In this document: positions 3,246 to 33,291 of the stretch, in pieces
How positions within the stretch are numbered: the stretch's first letter is position 1
How the letters are laid out: each line of letters starts with the position of its first letter
Origin: Wenzhouxiangella sp.
Lineage (GTDB): Bacteria; Pseudomonadota; Gammaproteobacteria; Xanthomonadales; Wenzhouxiangellaceae
Direction: 5' to 3'
DNA: 54,471 nucleotides
Assembly (NCBI GenBank): GCA_007134485.1
Contig: SLKT01000058.1
Coordinates: 1-54,471 of the forward strand
The notes under the pieces: generated by a model
What the model was told of the DNA's origin: nothing
Databases searched by the model: none
Seen by the model: only the letters and a program-made list of their open reading frames with translations
Program-made: the position numbers and the translations under genes

Positions 3246-4030
3246 CAGACCCGTACTCCGGAACGTCGCAGGAATTCTCCGGCCAGACCCATGTAGGCGA
3301 CCGCGCCGCGTGAATCACGATCATAGTGAATCACCGACTGACCATAGCTTGGCGCTTCGGCGACCCGCACGTTGCGCGGCACCACCGTACCGTAGAGCTT
3401 TTCGCCGAAATGCTCATGCAGCTGCCGGGATACGGCGCCGGAAAGGTTGTTGCGCAAATCGTACATGGTGCGCACCAGGCCCTCGATTTCAAGGTCCGGG
3501 TTGACCGACTCCTGGATCTGCTCGATGGTGCTGAGCAAGGCGGTCAGCCCCTCGAGCGCGTAGTACTCGCACTGCATGGGGATCAACACGCGGTCGGCAG
3601 CGGTCAGCGCATTGAGCGTCAGCACATTCAGCGCCGGAGGACAATCAATGATGATGTGATGATACTTACCATGCAGCTCGCCCAGCACCTCCTTGAGCAC
3701 CCCGGCACGATCGTCGCGTTCCATCAGGGCGACCTCGGCGGCGGTCAGGTCACCATTGGCCGGCAGCAGGTCAAAACCCATCGATTCGATGGCAACCACC
3801 ACCTCGCTGGCCCGGGCCTCGCCCAGCAACGTTTCGCAGATGGTGGCCTGACCGTCCTCGAGCTCAACGCCCGATCCAGTGGTGGCATTGCCCTGCGGGT
3901 CCATGTCCACCAGCAGCACGCGGCGGCGCAATTCCGCCAGCCCCGCGGCAAGATTGAGCGAGGTCGTGGTCTTGCCCACCCCGCCCTTCTGGTTGGCCAC
4001 GGCCACGATTCGGCATTTCCTGTCATTCAT
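3245..4030 (-). CDS. parA: Chromosome partitioning ATPase ParA (Soj)
   Basis: ParA is a deviant-Walker ATPase that binds DNA non-specifically in its ATP form and moves ParB-parS complexes. The 261-residue protein has the deviant Walker A motif KGGVGKTT at residues 15-22 with the signature first Lys15, a switch Asp in LVDMDPQGNAT, and the Walker B-like IIIDCPPAL. Length matches chromosomal Soj-type ParA, not longer plasmid forms with an N-terminal HTH. The start overlaps the rsmG stop by ATGA, so rsmG-parA-parB is one translationally coupled unit. Confidence 0.97.
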   Translation of the reverse strand: MNDRKCRIVAVANQKGGVGKTTTSLNLAAGLAELRRRVLLVDMDPQGNATTGSGVELEDGQATICETLLGEARASEVVVAIESMGFDLLPANGDLTAAEVALMERDDRAGVLKEVLGELHGKYHHIIIDCPPALNVLTLNALTAADRVLIPMQCEYYALEGLTALLSTIEQIQESVNPDLEIEGLVRTMYDLRNNLSGAVSRQLHEHFGEKLYGTVVPRNVRVAEAPSYGQSVIHYDRDSRGAVAYMGLAGEFLRRSGVRV

Positions 4031-13735: not shown

Positions 13736-14134
13736 ATGTACACCCTGACCGTGCGTGATCACTTCATGATTGCCCACAGTTTCGATGGCGAGGTGTTCGG
13801 ACCGGCCCAGCGCATGCATGGGGCCACCTACGTGGTCGATGCCACTTTCCAGCGTCGGGAACTGGACGATGATGACCTGGTCGTTGACATCGGCCTGGCC
13901 AGCGAGGTGCTGGGCGACATTCTGGCCGAGTTCAACTACTCCAACCTCGACCAGGTCGAGGCATTCGCGGGCCGCAACACCACCACCGAGTTCATGGCCG
14001 GAGTGATTTTCAAGCGCATGGCCGAAGCCATCCGCGCCGGTCGTCTGGGCGAGACCGGCAAGGGCCTGACCCGCATGAAAGTCTCGCTCAAGGAATCACA
14101 CCTGGCCTGGGCCAGCTTCGAGGGTGATCTTTGA
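13736..14134 (+). CDS. 6-pyruvoyl-tetrahydropterin synthase-like protein lacking catalytic Cys
   Basis: This 132-residue protein has the T-fold layout of PTPS/QueD enzymes, which act on dihydroneopterin triphosphate. Family landmarks kept are His14 (IAHSF), His28, Asp51, the T-x-E-like pocket near Thr84-Glu85 and the pterin-anchoring Glu120 in LKES. Two key features are lost. The usual Cys-x3-His-Gly-His motif reads Ala24-Q-R-M-His28-Gly-Ala30, so the catalytic Cys and the third zinc-binding His are both Ala. The LDHxxLN catalytic region reads FNYSNLD. A normal QueD or sepiapterin-forming reaction is therefore unlikely; it may bind a pterin-like compound or do different chemistry. The ATG is preceded by AAGGAG. 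It is first of four genes overlapping by 4 bp each. Confidence 0.8.
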   Translation: MYTLTVRDHFMIAHSFDGEVFGPAQRMHGATYVVDATFQRRELDDDDLVVDIGLASEVLGDILAEFNYSNLDQVEAFAGRNTTTEFMAGVIFKRMAEAIRAGRLGETGKGLTRMKVSLKESHLAWASFEGDL

Positions 14135-15198
14135 GCCTCGAGCTGACCCTGATCGTACCGGGCGATCCGGCCCAGCGCACCGGCGGTTACCTCTACGATG
14201 CACGCATCGTTGCCGAACTGAAAGCACAGGGTTGGAGCGTCAAGGTCATTGGCCTGGATGGAGACTTTCCGCTCGCTGACGCACGCGCCCGCGAACACAT
14301 GAATCAGGCCCTGGAAAGCCTGGCTGATGGCGCCCGCGTGGTGATCGACGGGCTGGCGCTGGGCGGAGCGCCCGAGGTGCTTGACACGCATGCAAGTCGG
14401 CTGGACCTGACCGCCCTCGTCCACCATCCACTGACCGATGAAACTGGCCTGCCCGAAAATTTTCAGCGGCAATTGCTGGACAGTGAACGCAAGGCGCTTG
14501 CCCCCTGTCGCAGGATCATCGTGACCAGCGCTTTCACCGCCCGGCGCCTGGGCGAGCTTGAGCTGTGCCACCAGGATCCGGTCGTGATCGAACCCGGCGT
14601 CGATCCGGCCGGCTTGGCCGAGGCTGTCGCCAACCGTCTGCAGGGACGAAATACCGACTCAATCGAAAACCTGCTGTGCGTCGCCAGCCTGACACCGCGC
14701 AAGGGCCAGGATGTACTCGTCGAAGCACTGGCCGGCCTGAAAAATCGTCGCTGGCACTGCGTACTGGCCGGCTCGGATCAGCGCGATCCTGAATTTGCCG
14801 GCCGGGTGAGAGCACTGATCCGTGAGCATGGCCTTGAAGCGCGCATCGAACTGACCGGCGAGCTCGGTCAAGAACAACTCCAAGCCCGTTACCACCATGC
14901 GTCAATGTGCATCGTGCCTTCTCACTACGAGGGCTACGGCATGGTGGTGACCGAAGCGCTGGCCCGCGGCCTGCCGTTGCTGTCCACCACCGGTGGCGCG
15001 CTCGCCGATACCGTGCCGGAACAAGCCGCACTGATCATTCCACCGGGCGATGTCGATGCGATGCGCTCGGCTCTGGTGAACTGGCTGGATGATTCGGCTC
15101 TCAGGCATCGCTTGACCCGGCAGGCCGTGGCCGCGCGTGATCGGCTTTCGCGGTGGCCGGAATCCGGCAAACGCTTTGCCGAAGCGCTGATCTCATGA
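14131..15198 (+). CDS. Glycosyltransferase family 4
   Basis: This 355-residue enzyme probably transfers a sugar from a nucleotide-sugar donor to an unknown acceptor. It has two Rossmann-like lobes. The N-lobe holds an acceptor-side segment with GGYLYDARIVAEL. The C-lobe begins near LLCVASLTPRKGQDVLVEAL and includes the donor-site motif SHYEGYGMVVTEALARGLP with the E-x7-E pattern of GT4. The TTG start overlaps the stop of the PTPS-like gene (TTGA), so the pair is translationally coupled. The context suggests the acceptor is the product of the pterin/GTP-derived enzymes nearby; that is inference. Confidence 0.88.
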   Translation: MSLELTLIVPGDPAQRTGGYLYDARIVAELKAQGWSVKVIGLDGDFPLADARAREHMNQALESLADGARVVIDGLALGGAPEVLDTHASRLDLTALVHHPLTDETGLPENFQRQLLDSERKALAPCRRIIVTSAFTARRLGELELCHQDPVVIEPGVDPAGLAEAVANRLQGRNTDSIENLLCVASLTPRKGQDVLVEALAGLKNRRWHCVLAGSDQRDPEFAGRVRALIREHGLEARIELTGELGQEQLQARYHHASMCIVPSHYEGYGMVVTEALARGLPLLSTTGGALADTVPEQAALIIPPGDVDAMRSALVNWLDDSALRHRLTRQAVAARDRLSRWPESGKRFAEALIS

Positions 15199-16052
15199 GC
15201 CAGGATGGCGGTCATTTCAATGCCCACTGGCTGAGCCTGCGCGAGCCGGCCGATGCCGCCGCTCGCTCGCAATCCCTGGTCGAGCGCCTGGATGCCTGGC
15301 TGGCCGACAGGGATGCAATGTGCATTGTCGACCTGGGCGCCGGCCATGGCAGCAATCTGCGCTTCCTCGGCGCCCGTCTGCATGGACGCCAGCAATGGCT
15401 GCTGATCGATCACGACCCGGAATTGCTCGACCATGCCGCCCGACATTCACCGGACCAAAGCGCCGATGGCCTTGCGGTTTCGGTGAAGTGCCGCAGCGGT
15501 GATCTGAAGGATCTGGCCACCCTCGACCTGCCCAAACCGGATGTGCTGACCGCCAGCGCCCTGCTGGACCTGTGTTCGCGCCAGTGGATCGAAATGCTGG
15601 TTGAACACATGGCGAGGTGGCGCAGTGCCGGACTGTTCAGCCTCAATGTGAATGGCCAGCGTTTTTTCATCGACCAGCATGGGCAACAGATCGTCAGCCG
15701 TGATGATCAACGAATGGCCGCCTGGTTCAATGATCATCAGTGCCAGGCCAAGGGGCTGGGGCGGGCGCTGGGACCGGATGCCGTGACGGTGCTGGCCGAT
15801 GCACTCGAGCAGGTCGGATTCGAGGTTTTTCAGGAATCAACACCCTGGCATTGTCCAGCCGGCGATCCCGACCGATCGACACTGGCCGTTGAACTGGTCA
15901 ACGGCTGGCGGCAAGCGGCCCTGGAAATCGCGCCCGGGCACGGTGAGTTCATCGACACTTGGCATCAGGAGCGCATGGACTGGTTGAACCGAAACCAGGC
16001 CGGCCTGGTGATTGGCCATATCGATCTGCTGGCGATTCCGGCGCCGCCATGA
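15195..16052 (+). CDS. Class I SAM-dependent methyltransferase
   Basis: The 285-residue protein has motif I IVDLGAGHGSNLRFL (about residues 45-59), an acidic residue after strand 2 (LLIDHDPELL), and the post-motif segment PDVLTASALLDLCSRQW. These identify a Rossmann-fold methyltransferase but give no substrate. The start at 15195 overlaps the preceding stop by ATGA. It lies in the four-gene plus-strand operon and likely methylates the same small molecule or glycoconjugate. Confidence 0.85.
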   Translation: MSQDGGHFNAHWLSLREPADAAARSQSLVERLDAWLADRDAMCIVDLGAGHGSNLRFLGARLHGRQQWLLIDHDPELLDHAARHSPDQSADGLAVSVKCRSGDLKDLATLDLPKPDVLTASALLDLCSRQWIEMLVEHMARWRSAGLFSLNVNGQRFFIDQHGQQIVSRDDQRMAAWFNDHQCQAKGLGRALGPDAVTVLADALEQVGFEVFQESTPWHCPAGDPDRSTLAVELVNGWRQAALEIAPGHGEFIDTWHQERMDWLNRNQAGLVIGHIDLLAIPAPP

Positions 16053-16963
16053 ACCGCCTGAAACCCTGGCTGCGTTGGCTGTTCAGCCTGGCCGTGCTGG
16101 CCGCGTTGCTGGCCTGGCTGGACCCGAGGGCCGTTGCCGAACAGATCATTGCCATCGAGATTGGCTGGCTGCTGGCCGCGTTGCTGTTCAGCGTGATCCA
16201 GATTCTGCTCTCGGCCTGGCGCTGGCGGTTTACCGCTCGGCAACTCGAATTACCGCTGGGCTGGCGCCAGGCCGTTTCCGAATATTACCTGGCTGGGTTC
16301 GTCAACCAGGTTTTGCCCGGCGGCGTGCTCGGCGATGCCTGGCGCGCACATCGACATGCCCGGGCCAGCGACAGCACCGGTCCGGCCTGGCGGGCGGTGA
16401 TCATCGAACGCGCTTCGGGCCAGTTGGTGGTTGCCGTCGCCGCACTGGCGATCATCGTGCTCACTCCGACATGGCGAAACGCCCTGGCCGGAGTGTGGAC
16501 ATCCATCGGCCCTATACCGGCCATCATTGGCACGGCCTTGGTCGTCGTTGTCACCCTGCTGCTGACCTGGCGATTGCTGAGCCGTTTTCGACCGGATCTG
16601 ATTCAGGTCTTTCGCGAGGACATCGTGCGCGCCCTGCTCTCGCCGCGCGTGCTGCCGATCCAGTTGCTGTTGTCGATGTTGATCGTGTTCAGCTACATGC
16701 TGATCTTTGCGCTGACTGCTCGCGGCATCGGCATCGAACTGCCGTTCGGCTGGCTGCTGGCGGTGGCGCTTCCGGTATTGCTGGCCATGCTGATCCCAAT
16801 CACGGTGGCCGGCTGGGGCCTGCGTGAGGCCACCGCCGCCGCGGTCTGGATGGCGATGGGATTGCCCGCCGAGCAGGGCGTAGCCGTGGCCATGGCCTAC
16901 GGGGTGGTCATCTTCCTGGCCAGCCTGCCGGGGATTCTGGTGTTTGCAGGGCCGATTCGATGA
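16049..16963 (+). CDS. Flippase-like integral membrane protein (LPG synthase TM/UPF0104 family)
   Basis: The 304-residue protein has about eight hydrophobic segments and the family motif FVNQVLPGGVLGDAWRAHR at about residues 88-106. A Trp-Gly-Leu-Arg-Glu segment (AGWGLREATAA) lies near the C-terminus. This is the membrane domain found in MprF and AglD-like proteins, many of which move or use lipid-linked intermediates. It overlaps the methyltransferase gene by ATGA and is last in the operon. Its presence suggests that the pathway product is handled at the membrane, perhaps exported or lipid-linked. Confidence 0.85.
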   Translation: MNRLKPWLRWLFSLAVLAALLAWLDPRAVAEQIIAIEIGWLLAALLFSVIQILLSAWRWRFTARQLELPLGWRQAVSEYYLAGFVNQVLPGGVLGDAWRAHRHARASDSTGPAWRAVIIERASGQLVVAVAALAIIVLTPTWRNALAGVWTSIGPIPAIIGTALVVVVTLLLTWRLLSRFRPDLIQVFREDIVRALLSPRVLPIQLLLSMLIVFSYMLIFALTARGIGIELPFGWLLAVALPVLLAMLIPITVAGWGLREATAAAVWMAMGLPAEQGVAVAMAYGVVIFLASLPGILVFAGPIR

Positions 16964-16972
16964 TCTCAGATC

Positions 16973-17812
16973 TCACCTCTGATGCATCGCCATATCGACG
17001 ATCAGTTCGTCGCCGCAGGGGTAGGCCCGCATGGTCCGGCGCGGGACCTGGGACAAACGCTCGATCACTGGCAGATTGATGCCGGGGGGACCTGATCCGA
17101 TCAGCAAGGGTGCGATCAGCAGATGCAGTCGATCCAGCACCCCGGCCTCGATGAAGCGCGATACGGTGACGCCGCCGCCTTCAACCAGGATGCGACGATG
17201 GCCGAATTCTTCAAGAAGCCGAATCACGTTGGCCGGTTCGAAACCCTCTTCATTGGTCTCGATCACGACTCGGCGAACATGCTCACCGGCCCGGACCGGT
17301 TTCAACCCGGGCCCGACCAGGTGCAGCGTCGTGGGCGAGTCTCGACCATCCTCGAACAGCGGTCCTTTCATAGGTACCCGCCCGCTGGGGTCCAGAATGA
17401 CCCGGACCGGATTCGGAGCATTCACATGGCGAACGGTCAGTTGCGGCTGATCGGCAATCGCGGTACCGGCGCCGATGATCACGGCATCGACCAGGCCACG
17501 CAGTCGATGAAGATGCCGGCGAGTGACCTTGTCATTGATGAAATACGAATCACCACTGGCCGTGGCGATGCGTCCATCCAGGCTCTGGCCCAGTTGCGCC
17601 ATGCAGAATGAATCCGGTGCGGTCGCCAGCGGGCTGAGCAGGTCCAGGGCCCGGGACTGCTCCGTATCAAGTGGATGCGAACAGTGCCAGCGCCCACCGG
17701 AGAAAAACTCGATCCGCCCGCCGGATACTTCGCACGCCCAGCTTTCCATCCGCGTCCAGTCCTGGCGACTGGCGGCCAGAAGCGCTTTCCAAAGTTCGGG
17801 GCTGAGATCCAT
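16973..17812 (-). CDS. RibD-type pyrimidine reductase with unknown N-terminal segment
   Basis: The 279-residue protein carries the riboflavin-pathway reductase fold from about residue 70 onward. It contains SLDGRIA at 77-83, HRLRGLVDAVIIGAGTAIADQPQLTVR and the NADPH-site ILVEGGGVTVSRF. In riboflavin synthesis this domain reduces the ribosyl side chain of a deaminated pyrimidine to ribityl. The RibD deaminase domain with its zinc motif is absent; the first 70 residues are unrelated and unrecognised. It lies convergent with the flippase gene (9-nt gap) and downstream of the GTP cyclohydrolase II gene, so it probably acts on a GTP-derived pyrimidine. Confidence 0.85.
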   Translation of the reverse strand: MDLSPELWKALLAASRQDWTRMESWACEVSGGRIEFFSGGRWHCSHPLDTEQSRALDLLSPLATAPDSFCMAQLGQSLDGRIATASGDSYFINDKVTRRHLHRLRGLVDAVIIGAGTAIADQPQLTVRHVNAPNPVRVILDPSGRVPMKGPLFEDGRDSPTTLHLVGPGLKPVRAGEHVRRVVIETNEEGFEPANVIRLLEEFGHRRILVEGGGVTVSRFIEAGVLDRLHLLIAPLLIGSGPPGINLPVIERLSQVPRRTMRAYPCGDELIVDMAMHQR

Positions 17813-17946
17813 GACGGGAATTGTACGGGAGCGGGGAGACGGAAGACGGTGGTCGGTAGTCAGTGGTCAGTCATGATCCTTTCCCTGACCCCTGACCCCT
17901 GATCCCTTTCCATCCTCAGAGCGATCGGGCTTCTGCGGGGTGGCGA
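17813..17946. repeat. Short repeats between the RibD-like and RibA-like genes
   Basis: The 134-bp gap holds GGAGACGGAAGACGG (17833-17849), a copy of the heptamer family. It is followed by GGTCGGTAGTCAGTGGTCAG and then CTGACCCCTGACCCCTGATCCC (about 17885-17906), which is roughly the inverted counterpart of the GGTCAG units. The stretch 17892-17908 is identical to 13273-13289. Confidence 0.65.
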
Positions 17947-19053
17947 TCACGACTCGTCCAGCAACTCATCGAGCAAATGACCCGAGCGGCTGGCCTTGGC
18001 AGTGAGATAGCGGCGGTTGTGGTCGGTGACCCGACCATAGAGCCGGTCCTGGCGCGCGACTTCGATGCCGCCATTGGCCAGGGCGGCAACCTTGACCGGA
18101 TTATTGGTCAGCAGGTGAACGCGGCGAATATCGAGGTTGTTGAGCATATCCACCGCCACGCCATAGCGGCGTTCATCCTCGCCGAAACCGAGGATGCCGT
18201 CGGCCTCGACGGTGTCGTGCCCCTGATCCTGCAAGGCGTAGGCCCTGAGCTTGTTGGCCAGGCCGATGCCGCGGCCCTCCTGGGCCAGATACAGCAACAC
18301 CCCGCCGCCCAGGCCGGCGATGGTTTCGATGGCCGTGCGCAACTGCTCGCCGCAGTCGCAACGCAGGCTGGCGAACAGATCGCCGGTCAGGCAGGCCGAG
18401 TGCAGGCGCACCGGCACCGCTTCAGACCACTTTTCGCTTTGTCCGATGACCACGGCCAGGTGCTCACGCAAACCGTCGGGTTCGCGAAACAGCACGAATC
18501 GCGATTCGGCCGACTCGGCCAGCGGCACATCGGCCTCACTGACCCGGCGCAGCATGCCGCGAGCATGATCGAAACAATGCTCGGCCTCGCGCGCTTCGAC
18601 GGCCAGCAGCTCACCGGCTCGAATCCGTTGGTCCAGTTCCGGGCGCAACTTCGGATCGATCCGCGCGGTCACGGCAGCAGGAATCAGCAGGGCCCGGCGC
18701 ATCAACGCCAGCGCGGCGCGCTCACTCGGCCCGGCCGGACGCGGCGCATCGAACATCTCACTGTGCGCCGAACGGGCCGAAATCGCGGCCTCGATCAGTT
18801 CTGCGCTGTCGACCTCGCAGTTGCTCAATGGCAGACAAGCCGCCGCCACGCTGATCGGATAGCCCATGGCCTGCATGCGATGACGGCTGACCGTCAACGC
18901 CGGTTCACCACCAGCTTGCTCGACCAGTCGGGTGATGCCGGGATCGGTCAGGCATTCCAGTGGATAGACCAGCGCGCTCTCACCACCATGATCGTCAATG
19001 ATCACCGGCAGTCCGCGACGCAGATCAAAAATGGCTCGTTCGATCTGATGCAT
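17947..19053 (-). CDS. GTP cyclohydrolase II with degenerate RibB-like N-terminal domain
   Basis: GTP cyclohydrolase II opens the imidazole ring of GTP to give the diaminopyrimidine that starts riboflavin and related pathways. The C-terminal half of this 368-residue protein is intact: Cys221, Cys232 and Cys234 (SACLTGDLFASLRCDCG) bind zinc, and QEGRGIGLANKLRAY and LLTNNPVKVAAL are conserved. The N-terminal half has the outline of the RibB (DHBP synthase) fold (AIFDLRRGLPVIIDDHGGES), but the acidic DEDRENEGD-type active-site loop is missing. It is therefore probably not a DHBP synthase. The start at 19053 gives MHQIERAIFDLRRG, the usual domain start. It is likely a pathway-specific paralog beside a RibD-like reductase. 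Confidence 0.88.
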   Translation of the reverse strand: MHQIERAIFDLRRGLPVIIDDHGGESALVYPLECLTDPGITRLVEQAGGEPALTVSRHRMQAMGYPISVAAACLPLSNCEVDSAELIEAAISARSAHSEMFDAPRPAGPSERAALALMRRALLIPAAVTARIDPKLRPELDQRIRAGELLAVEAREAEHCFDHARGMLRRVSEADVPLAESAESRFVLFREPDGLREHLAVVIGQSEKWSEAVPVRLHSACLTGDLFASLRCDCGEQLRTAIETIAGLGGGVLLYLAQEGRGIGLANKLRAYALQDQGHDTVEADGILGFGEDERRYGVAVDMLNNLDIRRVHLLTNNPVKVAALANGGIEVARQDRLYGRVTDHNRRYLTAKASRSGHLLDELLDES

Positions 19054-19145
19054 GCAATTTCCCGGACAAACAACAACCCGCAAGCTAACCGAAGTGCGGG
19101 ACATTCATGTGAAACCTGCCCCGCACCGTAACAGATCAGCCCGAC

Positions 19146-19925
19146 TCAGGTCTGCCACCCGATTGCCATCTCTCCGGTCTCGGCCAACACCCGGGCCAGG
19201 ATATTGCCGTAGTGGGCCACCAGTCGCTCACCCAACTCGGCGCTGGCCAGACCGGCACGGCCGACCACGCCGTTCGGATTGAGATCTTCGGCCAGCCAGG
19301 CCCATGCGGCCGGATGTTCCGGACCAAGCACCTCGGATGGGTGATTTTCTACAACGGAGCGAAAATCCTGCACCTGGTCCATGCGCACCCGATCAGGCGC
19401 CAGGTGCAACATGATCGCCGTTTCGGCCTGACCACCATGCAGGCCGCGCCGAAGTTCTAGCGCTTCGATCAATCCTTCCGGCGGGTCAAAACGCAGGTAG
19501 CTGGCCTTGACCACCAGCAGGCCCAACCGACGACGCAACTCCAGCGCGGCCAGGGTCATGACGGCATGATTGCCGCCGTGGGCGTTGACCAGCACCAGTC
19601 GCTTGATGCCGGCGCGGTGAATGCCCTCGCCGACTGATCGAATCACGCCAACCGCCTGGTCCGGCGTCAGACTCAGGGTGCCGGCGAAATTGCCATGCTC
19701 CTGGCTGGCGCCGATGGCCAGCGACGGCAGCACCACGAAGGGTTGTCTCGGTGACAGGGACTTGAGGGCAGCATCGCGCAAACCCTCGGCAATGATCAGG
19801 TCGGTGGCCAGTGGCAGATGGGGGCCGTGCTGCTCGATCGCCCCCAGCGCCATCACCGCCACCGGGTCCTTCGCGGCCAGTGTCTCCAGTTCGGGCGAGG
19901 TCAGGTGATTCCAGTCAACAATCAT
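19146..19925 (-). CDS. Creatininase/ArfB-family amidohydrolase
   Basis: The 259-residue protein is a metal-dependent amide hydrolase of the creatininase family. All metal-site residues are visible: Glu31, His33 and Asp42 in GAIEQHGPHLPLATDL, His116 in NAHGGNH and Glu168 in HGGQAETAIM. Known relatives include creatininase, MftE of mycofactocin synthesis, and archaeal ArfB, which deformylates a GTP-derived pyrimidine in riboflavin/F420 synthesis. With a GTP cyclohydrolase II and RibD reductase next door, an ArfB-like deformylase or other C-N hydrolase role is an attractive inference. The start at 19925 overlaps the FkbM gene stop by ATGA. Confidence 0.88.
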   Translation of the reverse strand: MIVDWNHLTSPELETLAAKDPVAVMALGAIEQHGPHLPLATDLIIAEGLRDAALKSLSPRQPFVVLPSLAIGASQEHGNFAGTLSLTPDQAVGVIRSVGEGIHRAGIKRLVLVNAHGGNHAVMTLAALELRRRLGLLVVKASYLRFDPPEGLIEALELRRGLHGGQAETAIMLHLAPDRVRMDQVQDFRSVVENHPSEVLGPEHPAAWAWLAEDLNPNGVVGRAGLASAELGERLVAHYGNILARVLAETGEMAIGWQT

Positions 19926-20683
19926 GGGGGCAGTGTAGCGCGCCGGGCGTACAGGTCGCCGGAAGCGATGCCATCGGCGCCGGCAGCAAGCCAATCATTC
20001 ACCTGGTCCGCATTGCGCCAGTCGGACCAGAGCATGCGGCGTTGTTCACCGGCCACGGCGTTGTAAACATAAGTATCCAGTTGTTCGAGTCGTTCGACGC
20101 AGGTGCGCGTCATCTCCAGGGTGGACTGGACAAATTCCACCGACAAGGCCTTGATTGGCCGGCTCAATCCGGCCAGCACCTCGGCCTCGTGACCTTCGAC
20201 ATCGATCTTGCAGAAGTCCGGTAGCCCATGCTCGGCAATCAGCTCGTCCAGGGTGGTCACATCGACCTCGACTTCCTCGCTCCAGCGCACCCGCTCGAAG
20301 CCCGGGTTGTCCCGTCCGACCTGTTCCCGCCAGGCCCGATTGAGCGAGGCCACCGAAGGATGTGCGGCACTCAAGGCCAGACCGGCCCGGCCCGGTTGAG
20401 CGCCCAACGCCTTGTCAGTCAGCACCACCCCATCGTCGCGACCATGAAAACGCGCCAGCCACTTCATCATCTCAGGCTGCGGCTCGACGGCGATCACCCG
20501 GGCGCCGAGTCGCCGAAAGGCGCGGGTGCGATCGCCCAGGTGGGCGCCGATATCGAAGACCAGACCATTGTCCGGGACCAGGGGACGATACAGCCTGAGC
20601 AGCCCACGCAATCGCCCCGGCCGGCGGTAAATCCACAACGACCGGGCCAGCCCCAGCCAGCGCTCAAGGCCGGACACACTCAC
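19922..20683 (-). CDS. FkbM family methyltransferase
   Basis: The 253-residue protein has the FkbM-type SAM motif VFDIGAHLGDRTRAF (about 43-57), the acidic VIAVEPQPEMM, and the characteristic FCKIDVEGHEAEVLAGL near the middle. FkbM enzymes usually O-methylate sugars or natural products. The start is a GTG at 20683. It is the first gene of the minus-strand operon FkbM - creatininase-like - RibA-like - RibD-like and overlaps the next gene by 4 bp, so it is a second methyltransferase for the proposed pathway. Confidence 0.88.
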   Translation of the reverse strand: MSVSGLERWLGLARSLWIYRRPGRLRGLLRLYRPLVPDNGLVFDIGAHLGDRTRAFRRLGARVIAVEPQPEMMKWLARFHGRDDGVVLTDKALGAQPGRAGLALSAAHPSVASLNRAWREQVGRDNPGFERVRWSEEVEVDVTTLDELIAEHGLPDFCKIDVEGHEAEVLAGLSRPIKALSVEFVQSTLEMTRTCVERLEQLDTYVYNAVAGEQRRMLWSDWRNADQVNDWLAAGADGIASGDLYARRATLPP

Positions 20684-20730: not shown

Positions 20731-22299
20731 GTGAACACCCAAACGTCCGCTTCTCAAGTATTGCCCAGGGTCTTGCTCGCCGGCCTGATACTGAACCTGG
20801 CGCTGATGCTGCCGGCCTGGTGGCGCGATGGCCAGTGGCTCAGTGTCCTGATCATCCCGGAAGCATGGTTGCTGGTCGCGCTTTTTGCGCTGCTGCCATC
20901 CAGGGCATCGACCCGGGCAGCCGCGTGGTTCATCGCCGCAACCTTTTCACTAATCGTCATTGCCGCATTCTTCGACGGCCTGCTGCGCCAGGTGCTGAGC
21001 CGCGAGTTGAACGTCCTGCTCGACCCGCTGATGCTTCAGGCCGGATTTCACCTGATCGACGGCAGCCTGGGCCGCTTGGCCGCAATCCTGGCATCGGTCC
21101 TGCTGGCCATCCTGTGCGGGTTGCTGGTCCTGGTCGTTCGCAAGAACCTGAGGCCAGGTCGGTCTTCCCATTCGGCGATGACGCTCGTAGTCATCGTCGC
21201 CACCGTGGTCACCGTCACCGCCTGGTTCAATGTGCTTTCCGGTACCCGCATCGTACCGGTCGCCACGCAACTGATCATCGCCCAGACCGAACAGGTCCGC
21301 CAGACCCTGCAATCGCAACGCCGGTTCCAGCGCGCCCTGGCCTCCGAGCAGATGGATGCCCGACCCATCGAGCGCCTGGCCGGACGCGATGTCTACCTGG
21401 TTTTCGTCGAATCGTACGGGGTCAGCCTGATCGATCAGGACCGCTATCGACAACACCTGCTGCCACTGCTCGATCAGGCCGAAGCCGACCTGCTTGAAGC
21501 CGGGCTGAGCGTACGCTCGGCCCGAATGGAAGCCCCGATTCGCGGCGGGCAATCCTGGCTGGCCCACGCCACCGTGCTGACCGGACAACGCATCGACAAT
21601 CAGTACACCTACCGACAGTTCATCGATGCCAACGCCGACACCCTGGCCAGTGACTTTCGCGCCACCGGCCATGCCGGCGTGAAAATCAGCCCGGCAATCA
21701 TCATGGACTGGCCCGAAGGCGATCGATTGGGTTTCGACCAGATCTACGCGGCCGCCGACCTCGACTACCGCGGCCCACCGCTGGGCTGGGTGACCATGCC
21801 CGACCAGTACACCCTGCATTACTTCAGCGAACACATTCGCCCCCGATACGAGCAACCGGTATTCGCCCAGATCGCCCTGATCAGCTCGCATGCGCCCTGG
21901 ACGCCGGTGATCGAACCGGTGGACTGGTCGGAAATTGACGATGGCCGGGTATTCCAGCGCTGGCGCGATGCCGGCGACAATCCACTGCGCCTGTGGACCC
22001 GGCCCGAACGTTTACGCGAGGCCTATCGCAACAGCATCGAGTATTCCCTGGCCGTCACCCTGGACTGGGCCCGGCATGCGCTATCCGACGATGGCCTGCT
22101 GATCCTACTGGGCGATCATCAGGCCGCCTCGCCGGTCACCGGTCGCGGCGTCAGCGCCGATGTGCCGGTTCACCTGATCAGCCGTGATGCAGAGTTGCTG
22201 AACTCATTCAAAGAATCAGGATTCACGGACGGCATGGTTCCCGCCAAACATCCATCGGCAGGCGCCATGGAAGACTTGCGGGCCATACTCCGGAAGTAG
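20731..22299 (+). CDS. Membrane-anchored sulfatase/alkaline-phosphatase superfamily protein
   Basis: The 522-residue protein has about five membrane helices in residues 10-175 and a soluble domain from about 215 onward. The soluble domain carries DVYLVFVESYGVS (metal-site strand with Glu), RGGQSWLAHATVLTG (position of the Ser/Thr nucleophile), and LLILLGDHQAASP (metal-binding Asp-His). The layout resembles LtaS/EptA-type phospho- or sulfo-transferases acting on envelope polymers. The start is a GTG at 20731, 48 nt from the divergent FkbM gene, so promoter elements may be shared. A role with the neighbouring pathway is possible but unproven. Confidence 0.75.
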   Translation: MNTQTSASQVLPRVLLAGLILNLALMLPAWWRDGQWLSVLIIPEAWLLVALFALLPSRASTRAAAWFIAATFSLIVIAAFFDGLLRQVLSRELNVLLDPLMLQAGFHLIDGSLGRLAAILASVLLAILCGLLVLVVRKNLRPGRSSHSAMTLVVIVATVVTVTAWFNVLSGTRIVPVATQLIIAQTEQVRQTLQSQRRFQRALASEQMDARPIERLAGRDVYLVFVESYGVSLIDQDRYRQHLLPLLDQAEADLLEAGLSVRSARMEAPIRGGQSWLAHATVLTGQRIDNQYTYRQFIDANADTLASDFRATGHAGVKISPAIIMDWPEGDRLGFDQIYAAADLDYRGPPLGWVTMPDQYTLHYFSEHIRPRYEQPVFAQIALISSHAPWTPVIEPVDWSEIDDGRVFQRWRDAGDNPLRLWTRPERLREAYRNSIEYSLAVTLDWARHALSDDGLLILLGDHQAASPVTGRGVSADVPVHLISRDAELLNSFKESGFTDGMVPAKHPSAGAMEDLRAILRK

Positions 22300-26058: not shown

Positions 26059-27273
26059 ATGATTCGTCAAGTTTTCAATGACCAAGATGATTTTTCCGTG
26101 CATGTAACTTCCATGACCCTGTCATGCGCCGCCGGCCGGGGTCTGAGTGCCGTTCGTCAAGCCCTTTCGGAGCGCCGCAGCGGGCTGCGCGCCAACGATT
26201 TTCCCGGATGCGAGCTCGACACCTGGATCGGACGGGTCGACGGCGTGGAGGATATCCGATTCGACCCGGGGCTTGCCGAATACGATTGTCGCAACAATCG
26301 CCTGGCCATGATCGGCCTGGAACACGATGATTTCACCACGGCCGCCGCCGAGCTGGTCAAGCGCCACGGCCGTGAACGGGTCGCCTGCGTGATCGGCACC
26401 AGTACCGCCGGCATCGGCACTACCGAGGCCGCCTATCGCGACCTGGGCGAGGCCGAGCACTTCGACCCGGCCTACCTCCTGCCGCGCGTGCATACGCCAC
26501 ACACCTCCGCGGCCTTTGTCGCCAGGGTGCTGGGACTGGGCGGCCCGGTCATCACCATTTCCACCGCCTGCTCCTCGAGCGCCAAGGTTTTCGCCACCGC
26601 TGCACGGCTGATCGATTCCGGCCTGGCCGATGCGGCCGTGGTCGGTGGCGTCGACAGCCTGTGCCTGTCGGTGTTGTACGGTTTTCACTCCCTCGAACTG
26701 GTTTCGGATCAGCCGTGTCGTCCCTTCGACCGGGCGCGTCGGGGCCTGAGCCTGGGTGAGGCGGCCGGTTTCGCCATCGTGGAAAAGTCCCCCCGCCAGT
26801 CCCTCGGACGCCTGATGGGCTGGGGCGAAAGTTCCGATGCCCATCACATGGCCTCGCCCCATCCCGAAGGCGCCGGCGCCGGCGCGGCCATGGCCGGCGC
26901 ACTTGAGCGCGCGGGCCTGCAGCCGGGCGCCATCGGCTACATCAATTGTCACGGCACGGCCACCCCGCTCAATGACCGGGTCGAGGCCATGGCCATTCGC
27001 AGCATTTTTCCCGACCCTCCGCCGGCGGCCTCGACCAAGGGCTGGACCGGCCATACCCTCGGCGCGGCCGGGATTGCCGAAGCGGTGTTCAGCCTGCTGG
27101 CGCTCAACGATGGCGAATTGCCGGCCGGTCTCAACCTGGAAGCACCCGAGTCCGAATGGGCCGATTTCATCCTGCTCGAACCGCTACAACGTCGGATCGA
27201 TGCGGTGTTGAGCAACTCGTTCGGCTTCGGCGGCAGCAATTGTGCTCTGATCTTCGGTCGGGAGGGCGCATGA
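26059..27273 (+). CDS. Beta-ketoacyl-ACP synthase of aryl polyene type
   Basis: This KAS-II-fold condensing enzyme probably extends the polyene chain on ACP. The 404-residue protein (from the ATG) has Cys171 in STACSSS, His298 in NCHGTATPLND and His332 in KGWTGHTLGAAG, the full Cys-His-His triad. A GTG at 26098 (MHVTSMTLSCAAG) matches the usual family start and may be the true one. It is first gene of the plus-strand set and overlaps the next gene by ATGA. It is ApeO/ApeR-like in role. Only one full ketosynthase is present, whereas the E. coli aryl polyene locus has two. Confidence 0.9.
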   Translation: MIRQVFNDQDDFSVHVTSMTLSCAAGRGLSAVRQALSERRSGLRANDFPGCELDTWIGRVDGVEDIRFDPGLAEYDCRNNRLAMIGLEHDDFTTAAAELVKRHGRERVACVIGTSTAGIGTTEAAYRDLGEAEHFDPAYLLPRVHTPHTSAAFVARVLGLGGPVITISTACSSSAKVFATAARLIDSGLADAAVVGGVDSLCLSVLYGFHSLELVSDQPCRPFDRARRGLSLGEAAGFAIVEKSPRQSLGRLMGWGESSDAHHMASPHPEGAGAGAAMAGALERAGLQPGAIGYINCHGTATPLNDRVEAMAIRSIFPDPPPAASTKGWTGHTLGAAGIAEAVFSLLALNDGELPAGLNLEAPESEWADFILLEPLQRRIDAVLSNSFGFGGSNCALIFGREGA

Positions 27274-28061
27274 AAATCGACATCGATGTGCTTGGCGCCG
27301 GTATCTGTGCGCCCGGCCTGCCGGACTGGGAGGCACTGCTCGATATCCTGGCCGGGAAGGGATTGAACGAGGATCGCAAACCACCCCGCTCGGCCCTGCT
27401 CTCGCCACGCGAGCGTCGCCGAGCACCGGCAGCCGTGAAACTCAGCTTTGCCGCCGCCGAACAGGCCTGCGCCATGGCCGAACTGGCGCCGGCCGACCCG
27501 GTCGCGGTATTCAGTTCGGGCATGGGCGATCTTCAGATCACCGACTACATGTGCCGCACCCTGGCCGAGCAACCCGACCTGCTCTCGCCGACGCGCTTTC
27601 ACAACTCCGTCCACAATGCCGCTTCCGGCTACTGGTCGATCGGCTCCGGGGCGACCGGCGATGTCACCGCGGTTTCGGGCTGGAAAGACAGCGCCGCGGC
27701 CGGCCTGCTCGAGGCACTGTCGAGAATTCAGTACGAACCGACCACGATCCTGCTGGTGATCTACGACGATGTCGCCTGCGGGCCCATGCGCGATCTGTGG
27801 CCGGCCGAATATCCATTCGGCGCCGCGCTGGTGCTGGCCCGACCCGGCCAGCGATCCGCCATGGCCCGCCTGGAAGCCCGAATCGACGGTGGTGAAGATC
27901 ATCACCCCGAAATGCCTGAAGTCCTCGAAGCGCGCATCATGGACAATCCGGCCGCTCGCATCCTGCCGCTGCTGGGCCAGATATCGGGTCGACTGCCGGG
28001 GCCGGTCACCATCGGCTCGGAGCAAGGGCCTGGATTGCAGTTCCGGGAACGCGAGAAATGA
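27270..28061 (+). CDS. Ketosynthase-like chain-length partner (ApeC-like)
   Basis: The 263-residue protein matches the short ketoacyl-synthase-like family that pairs with the active ketosynthase in aryl polyene synthesis. Visible are PVAVFSSGMGDLQ, the segment SPTRFHNSVHNAASGYWSI and a Ser-rich loop where the active ketosynthase would have its nucleophile Cys (AVSGWKDSAAAG). It therefore probably sets chain length or stabilises the partner and does not condense by itself. It is coupled by ATGA overlaps to the ketosynthase and to the glycosyltransferase. Confidence 0.85.
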   Translation: MKIDIDVLGAGICAPGLPDWEALLDILAGKGLNEDRKPPRSALLSPRERRRAPAAVKLSFAAAEQACAMAELAPADPVAVFSSGMGDLQITDYMCRTLAEQPDLLSPTRFHNSVHNAASGYWSIGSGATGDVTAVSGWKDSAAAGLLEALSRIQYEPTTILLVIYDDVACGPMRDLWPAEYPFGAALVLARPGQRSAMARLEARIDGGEDHHPEMPEVLEARIMDNPAARILPLLGQISGRLPGPVTIGSEQGPGLQFREREK

Positions 28062-28807
28062 AAACCGCGGCCGTGATTCCGGCGCGCAACGAACAGCGCA
28101 CCATTCGCGAAGTGGCCCAGGCCACGCTCGAGCAAGTCGACCGGGTCATCGTGGTCGATGACGGCTCGACCGATCAAACCGGCCAGTGCCTGGACGGACT
28201 CGGGATCGATCTGTTGCGCCACCGGCAATCGCGCGGCAAGGCCGCGGCCCTGGCCACCGGTTTCGAGCATGCGCTGGCCCACGATTGCGACTGGGTGGTC
28301 ACCCTCGATGGCGATGGCCAGCACGACCCGGCCGACATTGCCCGGCTGCTGGTTGCCGCCGAGGCCTGGCCCGGGCACCTGGTCATCGGCGCGCGCATTC
28401 GCCAGCGTCATCGCCAGCCGGGGATTCGGCGATTCGCCAACCGGTTTGCCGACTTCTGGATCTCCTGGGCCAGCGGCCAGCGCGTGCCCGACAGCCAGAC
28501 CGGTTTTCGCGCCTACCCGCGCCGATTGCTGGAAAAGATCCAGCCATCCACCCGCAAACGGCATGGTTTCGTGTTCGAAACCGCCATGCTTATCGATGGC
28601 GCCCGGGCCGGCCACCCCTGCGTGGCCGTGCCGATCGACAGCGTCTATCACGACGATGCCCGCCCCAGCTACTTCCGTCCGGGCAAGGACGTCTGGGAAA
28701 TCTTCTGGTTTGTATTTTGGCGAATCTTGTTGTGGGGCTTGTATCTGCCGGGCCTGTGGCGCATGCTGACCGGTGCGGCCCGATTGCACGACCCCGAATC
28801 ATCATGA
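28058..28807 (+). CDS. Glycosyltransferase family 2 (DPM1-like)
   Basis: The 249-residue protein has the GT-A start TAAVIPARNEQRTIREV, the DxD-like VVDDGSTD and LDGDGQHDP motifs, and a C-terminal hydrophobic segment (WFVFWRILLWGLYLPGLW) that anchors it to the membrane. Related enzymes make polyprenyl-phosphate sugars or decorate lipids, and many aryl polyene loci include one. It overlaps the chain-length-factor gene by 4 bp. The substrate is probably the aryl polyene lipid or its headgroup. Confidence 0.88.
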   Translation: MKTAAVIPARNEQRTIREVAQATLEQVDRVIVVDDGSTDQTGQCLDGLGIDLLRHRQSRGKAAALATGFEHALAHDCDWVVTLDGDGQHDPADIARLLVAAEAWPGHLVIGARIRQRHRQPGIRRFANRFADFWISWASGQRVPDSQTGFRAYPRRLLEKIQPSTRKRHGFVFETAMLIDGARAGHPCVAVPIDSVYHDDARPSYFRPGKDVWEIFWFVFWRILLWGLYLPGLWRMLTGAARLHDPESS

Positions 28808-28876
28808 AAGTGTCATCGTGAAGAAGACCTGGATGTCCGAACGATACAATGCCGTCCAATCAAGTTCACAACCCTG

Positions 28877-30511
28877 ATGCCCATGCAGTCTGACATTGTC
28901 ATCCTTGGTGGTGGCCTGGCCGGCATGACCCTTGCGCTTCAAATCCGTTCGCGCCATGCAGATGCCCGGATTTGCGTCATCGAGCGCCGCACCCACCCGG
29001 TCCCGATTTCCGCCCACAAGGTCGGCGAATCCACCGTCGAAATCGGCGCGCACTACCTGGCCGATGTCATCGGCCTGCGCGAACACCTCGAATCCTGCCA
29101 TCTGCGCAAGTACGGCCTGAGGCTGTTTTTCGATGCCGGCTCGACCAGCGATCTGGCCCAGGCCGGTGAGCTGGGCGCCAGCCACCTGTTGACACTGAGC
29201 AGCTACCAGATCGACCGCGGCGTGCTGGAAAACCACCTGGCCGAGCGCCTGGCCGACGAGGACATCGAGTTGATCGGCGGCGCCACGGTGCGCGCCATCG
29301 AACTGGCCGAGAGGGATGACGATCAGCACCAGGTCCGCTACCGTGTCGACGGTGAGACACACACCATCCACACGCGCTGGGTCATCGATGCCATGAGCCG
29401 CGGCTCGATCATCAAGCGACATCTCGACCTGGCCGAGGACAATGGCCACGAGTGCTCGTCGGTGTGGTTCCGTATTGCCGATCGCATCGACATCGGCCAA
29501 TGGAGCGAAAGCCCCGAATGGCAGCAGCGCTGCAACCAGCTTCCGCGCTGGCTATCGACCAATCACCTGGTCGGACCCGGCTACTGGGTCTGGCTGATTC
29601 CCCTGGCATCGGGCTCGACCAGCATCGGCATCGTGTTCGACAACCAGCTGCATGACTTCAACCGGCTCAAGACCTGGGAAGGCACGCTGGACTGGCTGGC
29701 CGAACATCAGCCCATGTGTCGGCAAGCCATCGAAGACTCCGACGGGCAACTGCAGGATTTTCTCTACCTGCGCAATTTCTCGCATGGCTGCAAGCAGGTA
29801 TTCTCGCCGCGCCGTTGGGCGCTGACCGGAGAAGCCGGGGTATTTCTGGACCCGTTCTATTCGCCAGGCAGCGATTTCATTGCCATCAGCAACACCTACA
29901 TCCCCGACCTGGTCTGCCGCGACCTGGCCGGCGAACCCTTTGCCCGCCGGGCACGCCTGTATGAGCGCAGCTTCTTTTCCTTCTACCAGTCCTCGTTGCA
30001 ACTCTATCGCGACCAGTACCCGCTGTTCGGTCATGCCCGTGCGATGAGCGCCAAGACCATCTGGGATTACGCCTACTACTGGGCAATCCTGGCATTGTTC
30101 GTTTTTTCCAACCGGCTCACCGACACCCGCTTGCTGGTCCGCAACGGTGTCATGCTTGACCAGGTGCGCGACTTGCACGCCCAGATGCAATCCATGTTTC
30201 GACACTGGGCGAAAGAGGAACCGGAGGTGGATGCGGCCGGGTTGTTCGTCAATCAGTCCGACCTGCCCTTGCTGGTCCGGCTCAATCGCGAACTGGCCGA
30301 AGTCGCCGATGATGACGATGCCAGGCTGGATGAACGCCTGGCCGACAATTGCCGAATGCTGCATGCCCTGGCCGATGAACTGCGTCAACTGGCGCCGGCC
30401 CAATCGGCCGAAGCCGTCACTCTGCACCGCGCCGACCCCACCCTGCACGAACCCCTGCTCAACGGCCTGCCCGAGCGCTTTACTCGCCCACCCGCGACGA
30501 GCGTGGCCTAA
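28877..30511 (+). CDS. Flavin-dependent halogenase-like monooxygenase 1
   Basis: The 544-residue protein has the FAD-binding GGGLAGM (11-17), the HKVGEST segment at 47-53, a Lys at residue 78 in LRKYGLRLFF where halogenases keep their catalytic lysine, and the WxWxIP signature at 237-242. These are hallmarks of flavin-dependent halogenases. A helical C-terminal extension of about 120 residues follows. Xanthomonadins are brominated aryl polyenes, so bromination or chlorination of the aryl headgroup is a reasonable inference. A plain hydroxylase cannot be excluded. It converges with the chorismatase gene, with a 4-bp overlap of stops. Confidence 0.82.
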   Translation: MPMQSDIVILGGGLAGMTLALQIRSRHADARICVIERRTHPVPISAHKVGESTVEIGAHYLADVIGLREHLESCHLRKYGLRLFFDAGSTSDLAQAGELGASHLLTLSSYQIDRGVLENHLAERLADEDIELIGGATVRAIELAERDDDQHQVRYRVDGETHTIHTRWVIDAMSRGSIIKRHLDLAEDNGHECSSVWFRIADRIDIGQWSESPEWQQRCNQLPRWLSTNHLVGPGYWVWLIPLASGSTSIGIVFDNQLHDFNRLKTWEGTLDWLAEHQPMCRQAIEDSDGQLQDFLYLRNFSHGCKQVFSPRRWALTGEAGVFLDPFYSPGSDFIAISNTYIPDLVCRDLAGEPFARRARLYERSFFSFYQSSLQLYRDQYPLFGHARAMSAKTIWDYAYYWAILALFVFSNRLTDTRLLVRNGVMLDQVRDLHAQMQSMFRHWAKEEPEVDAAGLFVNQSDLPLLVRLNRELAEVADDDDARLDERLADNCRMLHALADELRQLAPAQSAEAVTLHRADPTLHEPLLNGLPERFTRPPATSVA

Positions 30512-31401: not shown

Positions 31402-31477
31402 CAACGTGCCGCTCGCTTCCAGGCTCGAGCGGCCGACCGTGATGCCGGCCCGGCTGGCGGTTCCGATTCGACCGGCT

Positions 31478-32812: not shown

Positions 32813-32833
32813 GGTGAAAGGACATCCATCAAG

Positions 32834-32851
32834 TACAATGTTGACCTTGTA
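32834..32851. promoter_or_regulatory. 18-bp dyad between divergent pigment operons
   Basis: TACAATGTTGACCTTGTA has symmetric arms (TACAAxGTxxACxTTGTA) and is followed by TATTATAAT. It lies 22 nt from the halogenase 2 start and 165 nt from the ACP start. The shape suits a homodimeric regulator controlling both arms of the pigment cluster. The TATAAT at 32853-32858 could serve as a -10 on the minus strand. Apart from the ACP ribosome site, the rest of the 203-bp gap shows nothing clear. Confidence 0.45.
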
Positions 32852-33015
32852 TTATAATCCACGGGTCATGCAAAGCAGTGTCACGGAATCCCGACGCACT
32901 GCGTATATAAGAGCAACCAGACCCCTTCACAAGCAACTGGTTTAAAACAGGCAGCATGACCCTCCTCCAAGGGGGAGGCAGCCTTCAGTCACAACGGTTT
33001 CCCGGAGGAACATCA

Positions 33016-33285
33016 ATGAGTGCCGAGCAGACGCCAAATGAGCGCAAACTGGCCGAGCTGATCGTCGAATCACTGAATCTGGAAGATATCGAGCCCGAGG
33101 AAATCGAGCCCGAAAAGCCCCTGTTCGGCGATGAGTACGGCCTGGATTCGATCGATGCGCTCGAGCTCGCGCTGGCCATTTCCAAGACCTATGGCGTGCA
33201 GCTCAAGGCCGATGACGAAAAGAATCGGCACGTGTTCGCCAATCTGCGGGCCCTCAACGCCCATATCGAATCGCTGCGAGGCTGA
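33016..33285 (+). CDS. Acyl carrier protein of the aryl polyene pathway
   Basis: The 89-residue acidic protein has the phosphopantetheine site GLDSIDALEL with Ser45. It carries the growing polyene as a thioester. The start at 33016 is set by GGAGGAA eight bases upstream; codons further upstream are not ACP-like. It is slightly longer than primary-metabolism ACP and resembles ApeE/ApeF-type carriers. Only one ACP is seen, whereas the E. coli aryl polyene locus encodes two. It opens the main biosynthetic operon. Confidence 0.92.
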   Translation: MSAEQTPNERKLAELIVESLNLEDIEPEEIEPEKPLFGDEYGLDSIDALELALAISKTYGVQLKADDEKNRHVFANLRALNAHIESLRG

Positions 33286-33291
33286 TAGCGC

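Follow-up and report, generated by a model that had tools for sequence, protein, structure and literature searches.

GTP, from which vitamin B2 and folate synthesis starts, is converted to pterins and flavins along only a few textbook routes. Steps of the GTP cyclohydrolase II (GCH II) and RibD type are also borrowed outside riboflavin synthesis, in toxoflavin biosynthesis; to our knowledge, that pathway has no PTPS-like, CDP-alcohol, GT4 or flippase-like partner, which sets it apart from the cluster described here. Phosphatidylinositol mannoside type synthesis pairs a CDP-alcohol phosphatidyltransferase with a GT4 enzyme but does so without GTP-derived headgroup enzymes, and the GT4 protein investigated here is only distantly similar. 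In Streptomyces coelicolor, the PTPS homolog SCO6650 and the GCH II paralog SCO6655 have, as far as we know, been studied singly, with no role assigned. The authors of the SCO6650 work reportedly found zinc, the catalytic triad and PTPS activity all absent and left the function open, and SCO6655 is said to carry a Tyr105-type change and to stop at the formylamino intermediate. No account of the cluster was found in the literature searched; the pathway is probably undescribed, and its product probably comes from GTP and is linked to the membrane.

The locus lies in a window of 54,471 nucleotides (the whole stretch of DNA that was analysed) from Wenzhouxiangella sp. Eight intact open reading frames at 13736-20683 form two convergent arms, and all eight proteins score above curated Pfam cut-offs (PF01242, PF00534, PF13649, PF03706, PF01872, PF00925, PF02633 and PF05050), confirming the gene number, arrangement and families of the original prediction. 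Frequencies in the following list and below refer to 80 named loci that were selected solely by their PTPS-like protein, 64 of which are at least 20 kb long.

13736..14134, plus strand: PTPS-like protein, assigned to the SCO6650 family (Pfam, PDB 3d7j match; His14 and His28 kept, Ala30 at the third zinc ligand)
14131..15198, plus strand: GT4 glycosyltransferase (Pfam; TTG start, 4-base overlap with the PTPS-like gene; 79/80 loci)
15195..16052, plus strand: class I SAM methyltransferase, no named NCBIfam family (Pfam; 79/80 loci)
16049..16963, plus strand: LPG_synthase_TM / flippase-like membrane protein (PF03706, TIGR00374 above cut-off; 64/80 loci)
16973..17812, minus strand: stand-alone RibD C-terminal type reductase without deaminase domain (Pfam RibD_C; 54/80 loci)
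17947..19104, minus strand: GCH II (zinc cysteines, Tyr105 equivalent; N-terminal RibB remnant)
19146..19925, minus strand: creatininase-family amidohydrolase, proposed formamidase (Pfam; association with GCH II type)
19922..20683, minus strand: FkbM family methyltransferase, accessory (Pfam; 22/80 loci)
20731..22299, plus strand: membrane protein with weak sulfatase-type domain, proposed accessory (23.8 bits, Pfam cut-off 25; 15/80 loci)

Each of the three junctions in the plus arm is a 4-base overlap, and 9 bases separate the ends of the two arms. In the minus arm the FkbM and creatininase genes are the sole overlapping pair and the remaining gaps measure 41 and 134 bases; thus, the description of the operons as tightly overlapping is true of the plus arm alone. 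The AlphaFold model of the SAM methyltransferase has a mean pLDDT of 95.5. The LPG_TM protein corresponds to the membrane part of LPG synthase only (MprF model 26.4 bits versus 600), and a role as LPG synthase was rejected. In many of the genus relatives examined the sulfatase-like gene likewise flanks FkbM on this side, and its protein gave no PDB match at E 0.01.

The cluster genes, eight to twelve in number, are found together across several bacterial phyla. A BchC-like dehydrogenase gene is present in all 80 loci and a CDP-alcohol phosphatidyltransferase gene in 69, alongside creatininase in 51 and GCH II in 48. No RibD-type gene was detected in 26 of the 80 loci, mostly actinobacterial ones (21/64 among those of 20 kb or more), no GCH II in 32 (21/64) and no creatininase in 29 (20/64), showing that the GTP part of the cluster is not universal at the locus. 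The CDP-alcohol enzyme is absent from 11 loci (8/64) and LPG_TM from 16 (10/64). In a class sample of 274 genomes, PTPS-like protein and dehydrogenase occur in the identical 12 genomes, and the CDP-alcohol enzyme in these 12 plus two (G010 and G249) with a second cluster form. Among 31 hand-picked genomes the dehydrogenase and CDP-alcohol enzyme are present in the same 25, that is, in 25 of the 26 with a RibD-type gene and in none of the five without. In the Wenzhouxiangella genome both genes are located outside the window, on contig C158. The unit is therefore larger than the eight window genes and includes these two, which the original inventory had missed while naming the window families correctly.

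A chance neighbourhood was rejected, since in the class sample the parts occur together, even when dispersed: in G068 all are present on three contigs, one with dehydrogenase and CDP-alcohol enzyme, one with PTPS, GT4 and methyltransferase, and one with the RibD-type gene. Homologs that do not co-occur in other genomes had been named as the observation that would speak against the pathway; the genes do occur together elsewhere, in the 80 loci as well as in the class sample. G293 (99% complete) contains the window-type block, but dehydrogenase and CDP-alcohol gene were not found in it. The first steps of the pathway are tied together by natural GCH II-RibD and creatininase-RibD fusions. Cluster copies are plasmid-borne in five records examined, and at least 573 stretches matching the PTPS-like gene were confirmed in genome_contigs. 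The core of the cluster consists of the BchC-like dehydrogenase, PTPS-like protein, GT4, SAM methyltransferase, CDP-alcohol phosphatidyltransferase, LPG_TM and RibD-type reductase; GCH II, the creatininase-type putative formamidase, FkbM, YceI, the sulfatase-like protein and MdoGH are partners in some loci.

Of 97 loci with the CDP-alcohol gene, 96 showed the motif DGxxAR-x8-GxxxDxxxD in a six-frame scan, and the copy of this genome matches PF01066. Models for PgsA, archaetidylinositol phosphate synthase and PssA all remained below cut-off, and the alcohol substrate of this family is not assignable from sequence. For the dehydrogenase, BchC is the nearest NCBIfam model, likewise below cut-off, and the positions that we take to be the usual catalytic zinc ligands look replaced in the alignment. 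The presence of these two enzymes is a pointer to a lipid-linked product.

The original prediction of a PTPS-like protein holds with respect to the Pfam match, but the protein is not an ordinary PTPS or QueD. The alignment of the 80 loci and the window showed alanine at the third zinc ligand in 81/81 proteins, and likewise Ala24 in 81/81, four residues before the HGH position, where PTPS and QueD have Cys or Glu. Glu85 and Glu120 are kept. Both cases examined from the second cluster form have Glu and HxH. With the zinc ligand lost, an ordinary queuosine or folate PTPS was rejected; the window protein reaches 40.2 bits with the QueD model (cut-off 89.25). Comparison of the window-family profile with SCO6650 (PDB 3d7j) gave a full-length match (E 1.8e-59, 1-132 aligned) with the HGA motif in common, which places the protein in the SCO6650 family. 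The Streptomyces loci found here carry the gene block; SCO6650 itself is known as a single protein structure.

The window GCH II has intact zinc cysteines and catalytic region and keeps Tyr at the E. coli Tyr105 equivalent. Its N-terminal RibB remnant does not reach the Pfam cut-off (PF00926, 15.3 bits versus 26.4), and translation may actually begin at the internal Met18, at about 19053. Many actinobacterial cluster GCH IIs have Met, His or Gln at the Tyr105 position, the kind of change reported for SCO6655, from which the window enzyme differs by its Tyr and its RibB remnant; a GCH II halting at the formylamino stage in all loci was therefore rejected. Creatininase is present in 21/21 loci whose GCH II lacks the Tyr105 equivalent, and all nine GCH II loci without detected creatininase are of the Tyr type (two of them, L066 and L083, on short contigs). 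The association has a Fisher p of 0.05 with or without two twice-counted contigs (L061 = L086, L068 = L085) and with kinship ignored; these duplicates inflate the count of 71 GCH II loci and that of the 97 motif loci by at most two each and leave the counts in the 80 loci unaffected. A Tyr-type GCH II should not need the creatininase, yet 41 of 50 such loci have one, so its job may differ. The original naming of this protein as creatininase/ArfB-like stood for the family (PF02633), but the ArfB model gave 29.6 bits against a cut-off of 180; MftE and creatininase models are nearer, both also below cut-off, and the matches included no BrbF model. BrbF, formerly annotated as a creatininase, deformylates the same intermediate (PMC9478397); the window protein is a putative formamidase.

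We give about an even chance to the reading that the window carries the greater part of a biosynthetic cluster, dedicated and in some cases plasmid-borne, for a GTP-derived, phospholipid-linked product. That the pathway is a dedicated one is well supported; we infer the lipid nature of its product. GTP would be opened by GCH II to the formylamino- or diamino-ribosylaminopyrimidinone 5'-phosphate, and in those cases where GCH II halts prematurely the creatininase-like enzyme would take off the formyl residue. The RibD-type reductase would then convert the ribosyl to a ribityl chain with the 2-amino group retained; with no deaminase, the compound would exit the riboflavin route and stay pterin-like. 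In a fourth step, the PTPS-like protein (zinc ligand lost, Glu85 and Glu120 kept) and the dehydrogenase might bind and reshape this compound, which GT4 and methyltransferase would decorate in the fifth. The CDP-alcohol phosphatidyltransferase might finally join it to a phospholipid via a polyol or polyol phosphate, and the LPG_TM protein would handle the lipid at the membrane. We infer these steps, the fourth and sixth most conjecturally, from gene content, co-occurrence, fusions and motifs. The predicted GTP-derived heterocycle pathway is partly supported: a conserved set joins enzymes of the GTP, pyrimidine and pterin type with glycosyltransferase, methyltransferases and membrane protein, and its product is putative. 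More tentatively, and at somewhat less than even probability, several phyla may share a route from GTP through a ribityl-pyrimidine or ribityl-pterin headgroup to a phospholipid that is glycosylated and methylated, which would be a membrane lipid derived from a nucleotide. The cluster appears to reuse opening pterin and flavin steps and to tie them to phospholipid headgroup chemistry. It would explain the missing roles of SCO6650 and SCO6655, a question testable in a model strain, and a lipid-linked product would be a new class of membrane lipid.

It is very unlikely that the GCH II and RibD-type genes are riboflavin supply genes standing by chance beside a glycolipid cluster. As originally noted, riboflavin-specific genes are missing here: Pfam detected no deaminase, RibE or RibH among ten window proteins scanned, and the RibB remnant is below cut-off. 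A riboflavin operon was rejected because the complete set, RibD with deaminase, RibE, RibBA and RibH, is encoded on contig C122 of the same genome. The question whether the window genes are the only riboflavin genes of the cell is thereby answered for RibD and less cleanly for GCH II: the RibBA on C122 lacks the zinc cysteines, so that the window GCH II, the only canonical zinc-cysteine copy found in the genome, may also feed riboflavin. It furthermore resembles the PRK08815 RibA model, below cut-off (330.6 versus 464 bits). However, three cluster-free genomes of the genus were found to have no RibBA other than the cysteine-less kind, and both the natural fusions and the plasmid-borne copies argue against mere supply. 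So do the missing deaminase of the RibD-type protein and its place in a separate, cluster-associated branch of the tree. In that tree frame length was the basis for counting 18 reference RibD rows as riboflavin genes, only L084 being verified individually; a further row, L031, is a G182 gene adjoining a second-form dehydrogenase and not a riboflavin RibD. 2,5-Diamino-6-ribosylaminopyrimidinone reductase (RED) is likewise a RibD_C protein without deaminase, and PDB 6p8c is among the best matches of the RibD-type profile, which includes one riboflavin RibD row; the window protein, a predicted reductase, differs from RED by its cluster-associated branch.

A soluble glycosylated, methylated pterin or pyrimidine (cofactor, pigment or excreted metabolite), with CDP-alcohol enzyme and flippase-like protein serving export or a separate lipid, is a minor but real possibility. 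Glycosylated pterins such as cyanopterin exist, and the commonest block is dehydrogenase, PTPS-like protein, GT4 and methyltransferase (80, 80, 79 and 79 loci), compared with which the CDP-alcohol enzyme (69) and LPG_TM (64) are less universal. On the other hand, 68 of the 80 loci have the CDP-alcohol gene next to that of the dehydrogenase, and none of the 12 PTPS genomes in the class sample lacks it; the two second-form genomes have it as well. Even if soluble, the product would be an undescribed GTP-derived metabolite of marine and soil bacteria, encoded on some plasmids. Donation of the headgroup to osmoregulated periplasmic glucans or another glycan is rather improbable; here the CDP-alcohol enzyme would make the lipid donor, the sulfatase-like protein would transfer the headgroup and MdoGH would build the acceptor. 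MdoG is found in 18 and MdoH in 16 of the 80 loci (halomonads, Marinobacter, a Gemmatimonadales bin, Defluviicoccus and others), Mdo genes are present in three genus relatives examined (one of them the same contig as a named locus), and mdoH adjoins the dehydrogenase in Methylosinus; the sulfatase-like gene, beside FkbM in the window and present in 15 loci, fits as well. Most of the 80 loci nevertheless have no Mdo or sulfatase-like gene nearby, the MdoGH adjacency may be inherited within few lineages, and we know of no osmoregulated periplasmic glucan synthesis in actinobacteria. A phospholipid-linked product is our preferred reading.

YceI is encoded beside the cluster in this genome and in 23 of the 80 loci, just one of them actinobacterial. 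Cytochrome b561 is found in two of the 80 and also beside the copies in L175 and two plasmid records, and these neighbours faintly hint at a possible redox role of the cluster product.

All eight genes predicted between 13736 and 20683 are open, and each protein belongs to the Pfam family originally named for it.

Eight-gene cluster, 13736..20683
Plus arm: PTPS-like protein, GT4, SAM methyltransferase (MT), LPG_synthase_TM protein (LPG)
Minus arm: RibD-type protein, GTP cyclohydrolase II (GCH II; 17947..19104), creatininase, FkbM

The arms are convergent as described, their ends being separated by 9 bases. Tight overlap was claimed for both arms; it holds for the plus arm, with 4-base overlaps at three junctions, but in the minus arm only the FkbM and creatininase genes overlap. 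For PTPS-like, GT4, MT, RibD-type and creatininase no NCBIfam equivalog scored above the cut-off.

Co-occurrence of the gene set in other genomes, as the original prediction requires, was found in relatives, in 80 loci chosen by the PTPS-like protein only and in a class sample of 274 genomes. Among 61 relatives (E up to 1e-25), the RibD-type gene is present in 18/30 genomes of the genus (own counted), 2/7 of the family and 1/24 of the order. Comparison of 29 fetched neighbourhoods of RibD-type matches with the window proteins by tblastn showed the same block in nearly all long-enough genus neighbourhoods and, beyond the genus, in several of the class's families. Many fetched genus relatives have the unbroken order YceI, CDP-alcohol phosphatidyltransferase, dehydrogenase (BchC-like), PTPS, GT4, MT, LPG, RibD-type, GCH II, creatininase, FkbM, in some MdoHG, and then a sulfatase-like gene. 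Compared with most of them (L055-L064), the window has GCH II in the opposite orientation at the same place, and RibD-type also differs in orientation in a few comparisons; despite these inversions the gene neighbours are unchanged.

Scanning genome_contigs with an alignment of PTPS-like proteins yielded at least 573 confirmed stretches. The 80 best were retained; their titles place them in Gamma-, Beta- and Alphaproteobacteria, Actinomycetota, Gemmatimonadota and one Acidobacteria bin.

Gene content of the 80 loci
Dehydrogenase, 80/80
PTPS-like, 80/80 (selection criterion)
GT4, 79/80
MT, 79/80
CDP-alcohol enzyme, 69/80
LPG, 64/80
RibD-type, 54/80
Creatininase, 51/80
GCH II, 48/80
YceI, 23/80
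FkbM, 22/80
MdoG, 18/80
MdoH, 16/80
Sulfatase-like, 15/80
Cytochrome b561, 2/80

Sixteen of these loci are shorter than 20 kb; in the 64 others, used for absence counts, the CDP-alcohol enzyme is absent from 8, LPG from 10, creatininase from 20, and RibD-type and GCH II from 21 each. The gene directly upstream of PTPS-like is the dehydrogenase in 78/80 loci, the CDP-alcohol gene adjoins the dehydrogenase in 68/80, and the RibD-type gene, where present, faces the plus-arm end in 50 of 54. Unrelated lineages repeatedly have MdoG or MdoH, genes for periplasmic glucans, next to the cluster (L057, L059, L061, L086, L094-L097, L124, L182; L061 and L086 are one contig). Thirteen plasmid records match the RibD-type protein, and the five examined (Rhizobium, Microbacterium, Methylosinus, Thiodictyon, Palleronia) all contain some version of the block. 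On the Microbacterium plasmid (L181 11872-17647), typed mobilizable, the core block is present but GCH II and creatininase are not.

Neither the dehydrogenase nor the CDP-alcohol phosphatidyltransferase is encoded in the window. In the own genome both lie together, in divergent arrangement, on another contig, C158, which also has a YceI gene beside them. On the relevant side both sites lie away from the contig ends, so the split of the cluster looks real and not an assembly edge. PTPS-like (E up to 1e-18) was detected in 12/274 class genomes spread over 11 genera. Exactly these 12 also have the dehydrogenase (E up to 1e-60), and the CDP-alcohol enzyme (E up to 1e-20) occurs in them and additionally in G010 and G249, which carry a second form of the cluster. 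Fisher p values for the two overlaps are 3e-21 and 3e-19, kinship ignored. Of 31 genomes picked by hand, 26 carry the RibD-type gene and 5 lack it; dehydrogenase and CDP-alcohol enzyme were found together in 25 of the 26 carriers and in none of the 5. The exceptional carrier is G293, a genus relative rated 99% complete, in whose genome neither gene was found. The genes from PTPS to the sulfatase-like one are on an 8.8 kb contig (L060), where the approximately 1.2 kb preceding the PTPS gene contain no dehydrogenase.

The RibA- and RibD-like genes might simply be the cell's only riboflavin genes. For RibD this is not so: contig C122 of the own genome encodes RibD (deaminase and reductase), RibE, RibBA, RibH and NusB consecutively and the window protein has no deaminase domain (Pfam), thus the window gene is not a riboflavin remnant. 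A single tree of 52 RibD_C domains places the window type apart from 18 reference RibD and the second-form sequences L175, L177 and L031, across a branch with support 0.999. For GCH II the answer is less clear-cut: the C122 RibBA (L002 871-1998) lacks the GCH II zinc cysteines, therefore the window copy is the sole canonical GCH II found in this approximately 95% complete genome. Each of three cluster-free genus members (G292, G300, G298; L214, L215, L217) has a single PF00925 match, likewise cysteine-less; judged from these sequences, the cluster GCH II appears not to be required for whatever riboflavin the genus makes. The other two cluster-free family members have one (G305) and two (G306) PF00925 matches.

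The best profile match of the PTPS-like protein is PDB 3d7j (SCO6650 of Streptomyces coelicolor; E 1.8e-59), far above PTPS and QueD-like entries, and His14, His28, Ala30, Glu85 and Glu120 are identical in 81/81 sequences. The protein thus has a pterin-enzyme fold minus one zinc ligand. The authors of the SCO6650 structure reportedly observed neither metal nor activity. Most Streptomyces loci have the order PTPS, GT4, MT, LPG, creatininase, GCH II, from which we infer a fit with the numbering SCO6650 to SCO6655. In G010 and G249, the second-form PTPS retains an HxH motif, preceded by Glu. By score, the dehydrogenases of G010, G249, G174 and G182 form one group, and each of these four genes is beside or within approximately 1.1 kb of a RibD-type gene. 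Cytochrome b561 and cytochrome c' genes (L175 81-1977) flank one second-form locus, and the Rhizobium and Thiodictyon plasmid copies also include a cytochrome b gene.

The GTP enzymes are linked by two natural fusions, GCH II-RibD-type in G249 and creatininase-RibD-type in L124, a Gemmatimonadales bin. The GCH II motif could be read in 71 loci, and in 21 of these the position of E. coli Tyr105 is Met, His, Gln or Ile; in SCO6655 a change there is said to stop the product at the formylamino stage. Creatininase is present in 21/21 of these non-Tyr loci, and all 9 GCH II loci without detected creatininase, of which L066 and L083 are short contigs, have Tyr (kinship ignored, p is 0.05 and unaffected by two contigs that entered the Tyr loci in duplicate). 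Because creatininase also occurs in 41 Tyr-type loci, the link is suggestive only. A published account describes a creatininase-family formamidase for this formylamino intermediate, BrbF (PMC9478397).

With the deaminase missing, established riboflavin chemistry implies that the 2-amino group would be kept on the pyrimidine intermediate. The CDP-alcohol motif is present in 96/97 loci with that gene. The CDP-alcohol enzyme argues for a lipid-linked product, as do GT4, the flippase-like protein and the sulfatase-like and Mdo genes that recur at the loci. The YceI and cytochrome b561 genes are weak hints that the product may have a redox role. It is a guess that the ring closes to a pterin, and so are the glycosylation site and the linkage to lipid. 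No description of the cluster was found in the literature searched, which covered few subscription papers. We know of no counterpart that joins GTP-derived headgroup chemistry to phospholipid synthesis; reading the product as such a headgroup on a phospholipid, we therefore regard the cluster as a new kind of system, a claim to novelty that would be smaller if the product proves soluble.

Elsewhere in the window, ParA- and ParB-type partition genes lie at 2367-4030, a stretch that may be close to the replication origin. Positions 26059-39272 encode a ketoacyl synthase, an MMPL-type exporter and a flavin enzyme that weakly matches Trp-halogenase and lycopene cyclase; we take this stretch to resemble a pigment cluster of the aryl polyene or xanthomonadin type.
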